DNA of 64,000 nucleotides from Halobaculum saliterrae (GTDB lineage: Archaea > Halobacteriota > Halobacteria > Halobacteriales > Haloferacaceae), in the NCBI RefSeq assembly GCF_009831625.1, contig NZ_WUUS01000006.1:186001-250000 (forward strand), in the 5' to 3' direction. Numbering within the stretch: the stretch's first letter is position 1; each line of letters begins with the position of its first letter. Below the pieces are notes generated by a model, which made no database searches, was not told the DNA's origin, and saw only the letters and a list, made by a program, of their open reading frames with translations. Positions 5,762 through 57,442 of the stretch are shown here, piece by piece. A program made the translations under genes and the position numbers.

Positions 5762-5784
5762 AGTTACTCACAAGATGAGTAACT
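5762..5784. promoter_or_regulatory. Second TrmB-type operator
   Basis: A perfect inverted repeat with arms AGTTACTCA and TGAGTAACT around CAAGA. It contains TACT-N8-GAGTA at 5765-5781 and is nearly identical to the site at 1512, including most of the spacer. It lies about 100 bp upstream of the TrmB-like gene and overlaps the ATG (5775) of the small forward gene, so it could control both directions and the downstream glmU-like/glmS operon. Confidence 0.8.
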
Positions 5785-25399: not shown

Positions 25400-25864
25400 T
25401 CTACCCCTTCCGGCGTCTCCCTCGATCCGGCTTGCCGTCCTCCGGACAGTTCCCTGTGCTGAATTCGCAACCTCCCTCCCGGCCGATTCACAGCCGCCGG
25501 CTCCAGATCGGGGTGTGGGTCGACTCCGATCACACGAAGTCGCGGGAGGACCGATCGACACCCGAGGCGTTCCCCCGCTACTCGGCGTCCTTGGACCGGG
25601 CTATCGCCCGCCCACGGCCCTGTGACCGAGCCGAACGTCGGCGGCGACCCCGGCCGAAACGCCGAGTCAAACGTGGTGCGACGAGAGTGGAGGAACCCCG
25701 AAAATGCCAGTTCCACACCCGCTATTGGTCATTTGTACACCTTCCAAAAGACGCCGGAACGGAAAGCCGGTGGAGGGGATTGTGAACCACGGTCGGAGCT
25801 CGCTCCGACCTACCCCAAATCCCTCCACGCGAGGCTCTCCAGCCTCACTTCGTTCGGCAGAAGA
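25400..25864. other. Intergenic region with hairpins and tRNA-derived fragments
   Basis: No coding frame with credible bias. The first 350 bp show nothing recognised. The last 100 bp hold a degenerate direct copy of the tRNA-Thr 3' end (25765-25788), a perfect 2-nt-loop hairpin with 9-bp arms GGTCGGAGC and GCTCCGACC (25791-25810), an inverted 12-bp copy of the T-arm (25817-25828), and a small stem GAGGCT/AGCCTC (about 25832-25847). Confidence 0.55.
25765..25788 (-). repeat. Degenerate direct copy of the tRNA-Thr 3' end
   Basis: AGCCGGTGGAGGG is identical to the first 13 bases of the tRNA gene on the plus strand (25865-25877), and the following ATT..TGAACC matches with two insertions. The copies are 100 bp apart. 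Duplicated tRNA 3' ends are the usual mark of integrase attachment sites; no integrase is present here. Confidence 0.5.
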
Positions 25865-25937
25865 AGCCGGTGGAGGGATTTGAACCCTCGGCCTATTCCT
25901 TACGAAGGAATCGCTCTGCCAGCTGAGCTACACCGGC
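25865..25937 (-). tRNA. tRNA-Thr (anticodon CGT)
   Basis: A complete 73-nt cloverleaf on the minus strand. Acceptor arms GCCGGTG and CACCGGC pair perfectly, with T as discriminator as usual for archaeal tRNA-Thr. The D arm is GCTCAGCTGGCAGAGC. The anticodon stem ATTCC/GGAAT holds the loop TTCGTAA, giving anticodon CGT (reads ACG). The T arm is GAGGGTTCAAATCCCTC. CCA is not encoded and there is no intron. CTTATTCC about 27-33 bp upstream is the TATA candidate. Confidence 0.95.
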
Positions 25938-54565: not shown

Positions 54566-57103
54566 ATGGAACTGATCGTCACCGAGAAGGACAACGCCGC
54601 GCGGCGCCTCTCGGAGATCCTCTCGAACGGGGACTTCGACACCGAGCGACGCGCCGGCGTCAACGTCTACCGCTGGGGCGGCACCCGCTGTATCGGCCTG
54701 TCCGGCCACGTCGTCGCGGTGGACTTCCCCCCGGAGTACGACGACTGGCGGGACGTCGAGCCGGTGGAACTCATCGACGCGCCCGTCCGCAAGCGCCCGA
54801 CGAAGGAGGGGATCGTCCGCGCGCTGCGGCTGTTGTCGCGGGACGCCGATCGGGTCGTCATCGCGACCGACTACGACCGCGAGGGGGAGCTGATCGGCAA
54901 GGAGGCGTACGAGCTCGTCCGCGAGGTCAACGAGGACGTGCCCGTCGACCGCGTGCGCTTCTCGTCGATCACCGAACGCGAGGTGACCGAGGCGTTCGAC
55001 GACCGCGACGAGATCGACTTCGATCTGGCGGCCGCAGGGGAGGCGCGGCAGATCATCGACCTCATCTGGGGGGCGTCGCTGACGCGGTTCCTCTCGCTGT
55101 CCGCCCGACAGCTCGGCGACGACTTCATCTCGGTCGGCCGGGTGCAGGGGCCGACGCTGAAGCTCATCGTCGACCGCGAGCGGGAGATCGAGGCGTTCGA
55201 CCCCGAGGACTACTGGGAGCTGTTCGCGGACCTGCTGAAGCGCGAGGGCGAGGAGACGGACTCCGAGGACGCGTTCGACGCGCAGTACTTCTACGAGGAC
55301 GACGACGGCACCGAGGCCGAGCGCATCTGGGACGAGGCGACCGCCGACGCCGTCTACGACCGCCTGCGCGGGGCGGGGACGGCGACCGTCTCCTCCGTGC
55401 GCCGTCGCCGGCGGGCCGACGAGCCGCCCGCGCCGTTCAACACGACCCAGTTCATCCGCGCGGCCTCCTCGATCGGCTACTCGGCCCAGCGCGCGATGAG
55501 CATGGCCGAGGACCTGTACACGGCCGGGTTCATCACCTACCCGCGCACGGACAACACCGTCTATCCCGAGGACCTCGACGAGCGCGAGCTGCTGGAGGAC
55601 CTCTCGATGGGTCGGGGGTTCGGAGACGACGCCGAGTCCGTACTGGAGCTGGACGACATCGAGCCGACCGAGGGCGACGAGGAGACCACCGACCACCCGC
55701 CGATCCACCCGACCGGCGAGCTCCCGGCGCCCTCCGAGCTGTCGGACGACGAGTGGGAGGTGTACGAGCTGGTCGTTCGCCGGTTCCTCGCGACGTGTGC
55801 GCCCGACGCCGAGTGGGAGCACCTCCGCGTCGTCACGGAGGTCGAGGAGGGCGACGACGCCGTCGGGGTCGACGACGGCCCCCTGCGGCTGAAGTCCAAC
55901 GGCAAGCGCCTCACCGAGGAGGGGTACCACGCGGTGTACCCGTACCTCTCGACCAACGAGAGCTACGTCCCCGACGTGTCCGAGGGCGAGGCGCTCGCGG
56001 TCGTGGACACCGCGCTGGAGGCCAAACAGACCCAGCCGCCCCGCCGCTACGGCCAGTCGCGGCTCATCGAGACGATGGAGGACATGGGCATCGGGACGAA
56101 GGCGACGCGCCACGACGTGATCCAGAAGCTGTACGACCGCGGCTACATCGAGAGCGACCCGCCGCGCCCGACCGGCCTCGCGGAGGCGGTCGTCGAGGCG
56201 TCCGAGGAGTTCGCCGACCGCATCGTGAGCGACGAGATGACCGCCCAACTGGAGGCGGACATGCAGGCCATCGCCGCGGGCGAGAAGGAGTTCGACGAGG
56301 TCGCAGACGAGTCCCGGGAGATGCTCTCGCGGGTGTTCGAGGAACTGGTCGAGTCGCGCGAGGAGGTCGGCGACCACCTCCAGACGTCGCTGAAGGCGGA
56401 CAAACAGCTCGGGCCCTGTCCCGAGTGCGGCGACACCCTGCTCGTCCGGAAGTCCCGCGCCGGCTCCTACTTCGTGGGCTGCGACGGCTACCCGGACTGC
56501 GAGTACACCCTGCCCCTGCCGTCGACGGGGAAACCGCTCATCCTCGACGAGGTGTGCGACGACCACGGCCTGAGCCACGTGAAGATGCTCGCCGGGCGCA
56601 AGACGTTCGTCCACGGCTGTCCGCAGTGTCAGGCCGACGAGGCCGACGAGCAGGAGGACGAGGTGATCGGGGTGTGTCCCGAGTGTGGCGAGGAGCACGA
56701 CGGGGACCTCGCGATCAAGCGCCTCCGCTCGGGGTCGCGGCTCGTCGGCTGCACCCGATATCCCGACTGCGACTACTCGCTGCCCCTGCCGCGCAGGGGG
56801 GAGATCGAGGTGACCGACGAACGCTGCGAGGAGCACGACCTCCCGCATCTGGTGGTCCACTCGGGCGACGAGCCGTGGGAGCTGGGCTGTCCGATCTGCA
56901 ACTACCGGGAGTACCAGTCCCAGCAGGGGGGATCGGAACTGGAGACGATCGACGGGATCGGCGAGAAGACCGCGGAGAAGCTGAAGGACGCCGGCGTCGA
57001 CGACGTGTCCTCGCTCAAGGAGATGGAGCCGGACGCGCTCGCGGAGAAGGTCAACGGCGTCGGAGCGGACACGGTGCGGGACTGGCAAGCGAAGGCGAAC
57101 TGA
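54566..57103 (+). CDS. topA: DNA topoisomerase I (type IA)
   Basis: 845 aa. TOPRIM domain at the N-terminus: LIVTEKDNAARRLSEILSNG, and ATDYDREGELIGKEAY (DxDxE metal site). Active-site Tyr is in AGFITYPRTDNTVY. LSLSARQLGDDFISVGRVQG precedes domain III. Past residue 600 are three CxxC-type zinc-ribbon units (CPECGDTLLV...CDGYPDCEYT; CPQC; CPECGEEHDG...CTRYPDCDY), and a C-terminal helix-hairpin-helix TIDGIGEKTAEKLKDAG. It relaxes negative supercoils. No reverse-gyrase helicase domain is present. Confidence 0.95.
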   Translation: MELIVTEKDNAARRLSEILSNGDFDTERRAGVNVYRWGGTRCIGLSGHVVAVDFPPEYDDWRDVEPVELIDAPVRKRPTKEGIVRALRLLSRDADRVVIATDYDREGELIGKEAYELVREVNEDVPVDRVRFSSITEREVTEAFDDRDEIDFDLAAAGEARQIIDLIWGASLTRFLSLSARQLGDDFISVGRVQGPTLKLIVDREREIEAFDPEDYWELFADLLKREGEETDSEDAFDAQYFYEDDDGTEAERIWDEATADAVYDRLRGAGTATVSSVRRRRRADEPPAPFNTTQFIRAASSIGYSAQRAMSMAEDLYTAGFITYPRTDNTVYPEDLDERELLEDLSMGRGFGDDAESVLELDDIEPTEGDEETTDHPPIHPTGELPAPSELSDDEWEVYELVVRRFLATCAPDAEWEHLRVVTEVEEGDDAVGVDDGPLRLKSNGKRLTEEGYHAVYPYLSTNESYVPDVSEGEALAVVDTALEAKQTQPPRRYGQSRLIETMEDMGIGTKATRHDVIQKLYDRGYIESDPPRPTGLAEAVVEASEEFADRIVSDEMTAQLEADMQAIAAGEKEFDEVADESREMLSRVFEELVESREEVGDHLQTSLKADKQLGPCPECGDTLLVRKSRAGSYFVGCDGYPDCEYTLPLPSTGKPLILDEVCDDHGLSHVKMLAGRKTFVHGCPQCQADEADEQEDEVIGVCPECGEEHDGDLAIKRLRSGSRLVGCTRYPDCDYSLPLPRRGEIEVTDERCEEHDLPHLVVHSGDEPWELGCPICNYREYQSQQGGSELETIDGIGEKTAEKLKDAGVDDVSSLKEMEPDALAEKVNGVGADTVRDWQAKAN

Positions 57104-57122
57104 ACGCCCACCTTTTGTCGTT

Positions 57123-57442
57123 CGAGAGAGCGAAGCTCTCTCGTGATGAGCGAGACGGCTTCGCCGTCTCGAACCACACTGCGCTCCCTCGCGGTGCTCG
57201 GTCGCTCGGCAAAGTGTGGATCGAAAGCACTCCTCCCTCATGGTTCGAGAGACGGCTTTGCCGTCTCTCGTCAGTACCAGACGCCTCCGGCGTCTGGTCA
57301 GCAGTCAGGTCCGTCGGACCTGACAGCATCACGAAAGGCGCTGTGCGCCTTTCGAACGTTCGAAAATCGCGTTGCGATTTTCGAGCCAATCAGAACGCTT
57401 CGCGTTCTGATGACGACTTCGCTTCGCTCCGTTCGGTCGTCG
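57123..57442. repeat. Tandem array of perfect 3-nt-loop hairpins
   Basis: Between topA and the next gene at least eight perfect hairpins follow each other, each with 9-11 bp arms and a 3-nt loop: 57123-57143 (loop GAA), 57151-57171 (TTC), 57246-57270 (TTT), 57276-57298 (TCC), 57304-57324 (GTC), 57332-57354 (TGT), 57361-57383 (GTT) and 57390-57410 (TTC). Arms differ between units except for the related pair CGAGACGGC and CGAGAGACGGC. A long-range CCACACT/AGTGTGG pair (57173, 57212), a TTCGAACGTTCGAA palindrome (57351-57364) and a loose GACGAC/GTCGTC stem (57412-57442) fill the gaps. No open frame with codon bias crosses the region. Confidence 0.9.

Follow-up and report, generated by a model that had tools for sequence, protein, structure and literature searches.

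The described system that comes closest to the hairpin chains reported here is the SMR-A group (HqIRS42, HqIRS43 and HqIRS55) of Haloquadratum walsbyi, small mobile repeats whose mobilisation is called enigmatic in the available text of the source (PMC3119063). They are given there as ~110 bp in length, present in many copies and non-coding, with prominent inverted ends and no target duplication (PMC3119063), and they are found inserted in near-terminal palindromes of IS605-type elements or of palindrome-associated transposable elements, PATEs (PMC3119063). The PATEs, like the family described below, are transposase-free and palindromic, occur in haloarchaea and make no target duplication, but in the accessible part of their description they are without the inverted terminal repeats that the family possesses, and the family inserts into such palindromes (PMC3119063). 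The REP, REPIN and RAYT systems likewise have short intergenic hairpins, often inversely paired, and spread with the help of a transposase supplied in trans (PMC3733652; see also PMC3116915); unlike REP and REPIN sequences as portrayed in the available sections of the former, the family has the feet TCGTT, TGATG, TGCTA, GATGA and AACCA with no GTAG or GGAG, and it chains up to six different hairpins. MITEs differ from the family, which is without target duplication. A likeness of another kind is offered by quasipalindrome template switching, i.e. homogenisation of arms and inversion of 2-5-nt spacers, although the accessible text presents this as mutation at resident repeats and not as upkeep of a mobile element (PMC8604942).

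The locus lies in a 64-kb window (the whole stretch of DNA analysed) of a haloarchaeal genome of 3.78 Mb in 21 contigs, here G000. All eight of the perfect hairpins announced in the original prediction were located at 57123-57411, with arms of 9-11 bp and 3-nt loops within 289 bp; their succession is however broken by a gap of 74 nt between hairpins 2 and 3, and the claim that their arms are unrelated did not stand, since other copies show kinship. Comparison with shuffled sequence, which had been proposed as a check, was run on the window: hairpins with a loop of 3 and an arm of at least 9 number 10, versus a mean of 1.3 in 20 dinucleotide shuffles, and 8 of the 10 fall inside the 289-bp array. 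The excess of loop-3 hairpins is in non-coding DNA, as judged from an 850-kb sample of the 3.78 Mb divided by a home-made gene call, where those with arms of at least 10 number 12 in 166 kb of non-coding versus 6 in 684 kb of coding sequence; the array itself supplies 8 of the 18 non-coding loop-3 hairpins with arms of at least 9 in this sample. The features of the locus are as follows.

54566..57103, + strand: upstream topA-like gene, outside the element; ORF of 845 aa, presumably topA (DNA topoisomerase I); found in all 11 genomes of the genus
57118..57176, + strand: short two-hairpin element, 59 bp; TCGTT-hp-TGATGAG-hp-AACCA, with linkers that match the family
57123..57143, no strand: hairpin 1, arm 9, loop GAA
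57151..57171, no strand: hairpin 2, arm 9, loop TTC (GAA in G008)
57241..57416, - strand: six-hairpin element, 176 bp; R1 match, G008 alignment, DNA fold
57246..57270, no strand: hairpin 3, arm 11, loop TTT
57276..57298, no strand: hairpin 4, arm 10, loop TCC; arms recur with a different loop at G000:C7:140337
57304..57324, no strand: hairpin 5, arm 9, loop GTC; alternative reading arm 10, loop 1
57332..57354, no strand: hairpin 6, arm 10, loop TGT
57360..57384, no strand: hairpin 7, arm 11, loop GTT
57389..57411, no strand: hairpin 8, arm 10, loop TTC

The short copy is bordered by the target bases G57117 and C57177 and is present at the same place after topA in the congener G008, there with identical arms, one altered loop (GAT for GAA) and one inverted loop (GAA for TTC). 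The long copy reads, on the - strand, TCGTC-hp-TGGC-hp-ACGTT-hp-TGATGCT-hp-TGCTG-hp-ACTGA-hp-AACCA; the covariance model R1 (see below) matches it at 57240-57360 (-) with 134 bits, folding of 57241-57416 under a DNA model gives six hairpins with a z-score of -13.3, and the base preceding it in the window is A instead of the usual G. This copy is absent from the topA gap of G008, and when 57241-57416 is left out the gap aligns to that of G008 over 287 positions with no internal gap; the six-hairpin block is therefore an exact insertion. A comparable six-hairpin form occurs elsewhere in G008, at C1:484191. Maintenance in relatives, a point raised by the original prediction, thus depends on the copy: the six-hairpin block is absent from G008, whereas the two-hairpin copy is kept. 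The segment between both elements (57178-57239) is common to G008, resembles flanks of copies in other genomes and seems to be part of an older repeat. The array consists of two insertions from a single dispersed, non-coding family and is not a series of unrelated scars; very probably this family is a mobile element of Halobacteria made of triloop-hairpin chains.

Two observations first led to the family: the arm word of hairpin 4 turns up again in G000 with a different loop, and contig C10 carries a two-hairpin unit whose linkers are identical to those of hairpins 1 and 2. A single-hairpin pattern has matches in 9 of the 11 genomes of the genus, many of them in surroundings that are longer chains with fixed linkers. 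Model R1, built from an alignment of five four-hairpin copies, has matches in 10 of the 11, and in G000 its 15 matches fall at 8 places, three being parts of the window array. At E ≤ 0.01 it has hits in 120 of the 148 taxonomic-family genomes, the R1 counts there being lower bounds (up to 24 candidates scored per genome); at E ≤ 1e-6, in a sample of the phylum, it finds 39 of 53 haloarchaeal genomes versus 0 of 241 others, a split counted by hand from the table. A 23-base pattern identifies 98 stretches in a named collection, with haloarchaea making up 76 of 80 among the matches listed, including Halorubrum, Haloarcula, Halococcus, Haladaptatus, Halonotius, Haloarchaeobius and other genera; the other 4 of the 80 are bacterial and were not parsed as elements. 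A half-element pattern search lists starts in 12 genomes, two Haloquadratum plasmid stretches contain one weak match (19.6 bits), and a search of phage sequences with two copies gave no match. The copies are dispersed, and their number differs between genomes.

Each copy is a chain of 3-nt-loop hairpins with conserved 4-7-nt linkers and the conserved ends TCGTT and AACCA, in the usual form TCGTT-hp1-TGATGNN-hp2-TGCTA-hp3-GATGA-hp4-AACCA. Parsing of all collected loci gave 71 elements, of which 67 are distinct; the procedure requires the 3-nt loop and anchored ends and leaves out copies of other form. Their cores of ~105-125 bp are, like SMR-A, too short for a transposase, although the window copies at 59 and 176 bp depart from the ~110 bp stated in the consulted part of the SMR-A description. 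Inverted end repeats (TCGTTCGA.. versus TGGTTCGA.. at opposite ends) are a further likeness to SMR-A as there described. In the parsed elements the linkers are more constant than the arms, of which 14, 20, 26 and 18 different ones occur at hp1, hp2, hp3 and hp4, respectively. Forms with 2, 4, 5 and 6 hairpins occur; those with two hairpins resemble the outcome of a deletion that joined TGATG to AATGA, and the shorter and longer forms would arise generally by deletions and fusions between linkers. In Halorubrum salipaludis (G140, L147-L155) a larger repeat of ~235 nt encloses the element in the layout AAAGCCCCAG - covarying 15-20-bp stem - element - stem - CCCCTTTGAGTCCCACCC; TTATAA-like boxes frequently lie upstream of it. 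Two-hairpin units of another type, with other linkers (GTT-CACAAATCGC-loop-..-CGC-TCACGAGACC-loop-..-ACGGCG), are found at G000:C1:298134-298182 and C1:274590 and are perhaps a sister family.

The insertion site was defined by joining the flanks of parsed copies and searching the joined sequence against all loci. The 19 resulting alignments, representing 14 query elements and about 10 unoccupied sites, show a 2-nt gap across the junction in 18 cases, nearly always GC, and a 3-nt gap in one; none has a duplicated target. The element is therefore TCGTT...AACCA, inserted between G and C without duplication of the target, and together with the gap-free G000/G008 alignment this agrees with SMR-A as far as its available description goes. 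The reverse comparison is provided by an element of G008 (C1:2008672) whose matching site in G000:C7 (L071) is unoccupied with GC at the junction, so that presence and absence are shown in both directions; a search for sites matching G005:563929 in six genomes gave mostly short pieces. The site consensus from 60 flank-distinct copies, YGNNG^CG, is biased because many of these sit in the same Halorubrum repeat. Several copies lie inside the palindrome CCTCGGGG-CTTGA-CCCCGAGG or its variants, i.e. in CCTCGGGG^CTTGACCCCGAGG-type sites, and two of these palindrome-sited copies (L320, L321) directly follow TnpB-like ORFs. Insertion into a palindrome beside an IS605-type tnpB again resembles SMR-A as outlined in the available text, at the level of the family only, the window copies being in no known IS605 palindrome. 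Flanking palindromes as a general target were rejected, since they are not clearly in excess: flank stems average 4.56 versus 4.38 ± 0.13 in permuted pairs, with 23% versus 15% reaching at least 6 bp, and a second measure showed no excess, so that palindrome insertion is true of some copies and is no rule. A dispersed haloarchaeal palindrome, GCCACGGGGCTTGACCCCGAGG (L265:1501-1522; 104 plasmid records), serves as an insertion site, and tnpB was absent beside the bare palindrome in all 8 of the 8 annotated plasmid places opened.

The stems are kept to a high standard while their sequences change. Watson-Crick pairing accounts for 2538 of 2578 stem pairs across the 67 distinct copies; of their 268 hairpins, 232 are perfect and 253 are closed by a C-G pair. 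The 40 mismatches on which a test of G-U preference rests comprise 16 GU, 12 AC and 12 others, and G-U is not clearly favoured. Loops frequently occur as reverse complements: 736 such pairs are counted versus 15 complement-only and 6 reverse-only pairs, and versus 257 ± 18 after shuffling of the loop columns. Most loop counts are balanced (TCC 38/GGA 37, GAA 37/TTC 30, TTT 21/AAA 14), and a few are uneven (GAC 14/GTC 3, TCT 14/AGA 3); between the matching copies G005:400677 and G007:380543 the sole difference is that loops 1 and 3 are inverted. In yeast, according to the accessible text, template switching at inverted repeats homogenises arms and inverts spacers, including those of 3 nt (PMC8604942), and acts at arms over 9 bp with spacers of 2-5 nt (PMC8604942). 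By analogy, maintenance of the arms and inversion of the loops by template switching is likely in haloarchaea as well: polymerase switching between the arms during replication would keep these perfect and turn the loops over. Template switching at the level of DNA fits better than an RNA fold because there is no clear G-U bias and the loops are reverse complements. It accounts for perfect arms and flipped loops, but not for the conserved linkers, which could also reflect an RNA or protein-binding role. Two expectations of the original prediction were borne out here, that the structure rather than the arm sequence is kept (pairs stay complementary as arms vary) and that a mechanism acts on short inverted repeats (arms are homogenised and loops inverted).

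The lack of target duplication, the hairpins and the palindromic targets suggest single-stranded movement as in IS200/IS605. The element may move as single-stranded DNA, with a protein supplied in trans that would recognise hairpins and single-stranded linkers, and hairpin-like targets may be preferred. A more complete proposal, put forward tentatively, is that of a selfish element whose heritable unit is the fold: replication would re-copy the arms so that arm words and loops drift, the linkers and ends would serve as recognition signals, and a protein of Halobacteria would move the folded single-stranded DNA into triloop-like sites (Y-G-N-N-G^C-G) that resemble the element's own hairpin apices, so that copies could nest. 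A contig of G046 (C36) with element pieces at both ends was considered as an autonomous form and rejected, because the two ends repeat each other in inverse orientation without a difference over 95 nt, as at an assembly break, and five long frames on it include no transposase family.

An unlikely special case of the mobile-element explanation is an element derived from IS200/IS605 and moved in trans by TnpA (Y1) in the manner of a PATE or REP. The absence of target duplication, the hairpins and the palindrome insertions next to tnpB fit such an origin, but the hairpins have no REP-type GTAG foot and Y1_Tnp is absent from the carriers G025 (which is copy-rich), G015 and G022. The window's genome has 0 matches to PF01797 as well, a difference from REP/REPIN systems, whose Y1 (RAYT-like) transposase figures in the available text on them. 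Across the taxonomic family PF01797 is present in 103 of 148 genomes, and in 28 of the 40 with at least 10 R1 matches (own count), which indicates no association with copy number.

That the hairpins constitute a structured non-coding RNA or an RNA 3' end, with stems kept by selection on the transcript, is an improbable reading. Constant linkers combined with changing stems are the usual mark of RNA structure, and TTATAA-like boxes stand upstream of Halorubrum copies; yet wobble pairing is scarce and shows no clear preference (16 of 2578 pairs are GU, beside 12 AC and 12 others), loops invert freely, and short and long forms coexist. An Rfam search gave no family at E ≤ 0.5 in four loci and no convincing match in the window, and on these null results together with the lack of a clear wobble excess a structured RNA, which the original prediction had entertained downstream of topA, was rejected. 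Formation of the hairpins singly and in place by fold-back replication errors, as immobile scars, is very improbable. Perfect short arms, 3-nt loops and the prevalent C-G closing pair might be products of snap-back synthesis, but the same linkers and hairpin order recur in other genera, and comparison of two genomes shows the block to be an exact insertion; scar origin of the array, likewise suggested at the outset as replication slippage, is contradicted by these recurrence and insertion data, the array being two insertions of a dispersed element, and template switching is likely for its upkeep. A host structural site for the nucleoid, a topoisomerase or a terminator is hardly credible: the hairpins do follow topA directly in G000, and G008 has the two-hairpin copy there, but in the other genomes of the genus that were examined this gap holds no intact unit (G001 shows an eroded trace, G009 one 8-bp hairpin), and other copies adjoin many different, unrelated genes, so the proposed topA linkage finds no support.

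The mobile family, in sum of its behaviour, appears to behave like SMR-A, a likeness drawn from behaviour and from the available description, not from sequence; the triloop chain, the linkers, loop inversion and the G^C site are absent from that description as accessible. In the open-access literature covered by the searches no description was found of the triloop chain, its linkers, exact site, class-wide range or loop inversion, and searches with element sequence words returned no haloarchaeal paper among the matches listed. The SMR-A category is defined, in the portion of the source available, from one species; the family described here spans Halobacteria. With ends, insertion site and inner anatomy fixed to the base, the mobilising enzyme becomes searchable and movement can be assayed. 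In its inverted loops and homogenised arms the family also preserves a natural archive, probably of template switching in archaea, and it cautions that compensatory changes alongside conserved linkers are not in themselves proof of an RNA.

Other hairpins of the window are of different form. The 2-nt-loop hairpin near a tRNA that had been pointed out at 25791 is real: it occupies 25791-25810, is perfect with a 9-bp arm, and lies 54 nt downstream of tRNA-Thr (25865-25937, -). It has no arm or linker in common with the triloop-chain family and is not a member. Two near-identical 5-nt-loop hairpins at 1512-1534 and 5762-5784 have the arms GGTTACTCA and AGTTACTCA and the loops CAAGC and CAAGA, and are possibly the ends or copies of another repeat.
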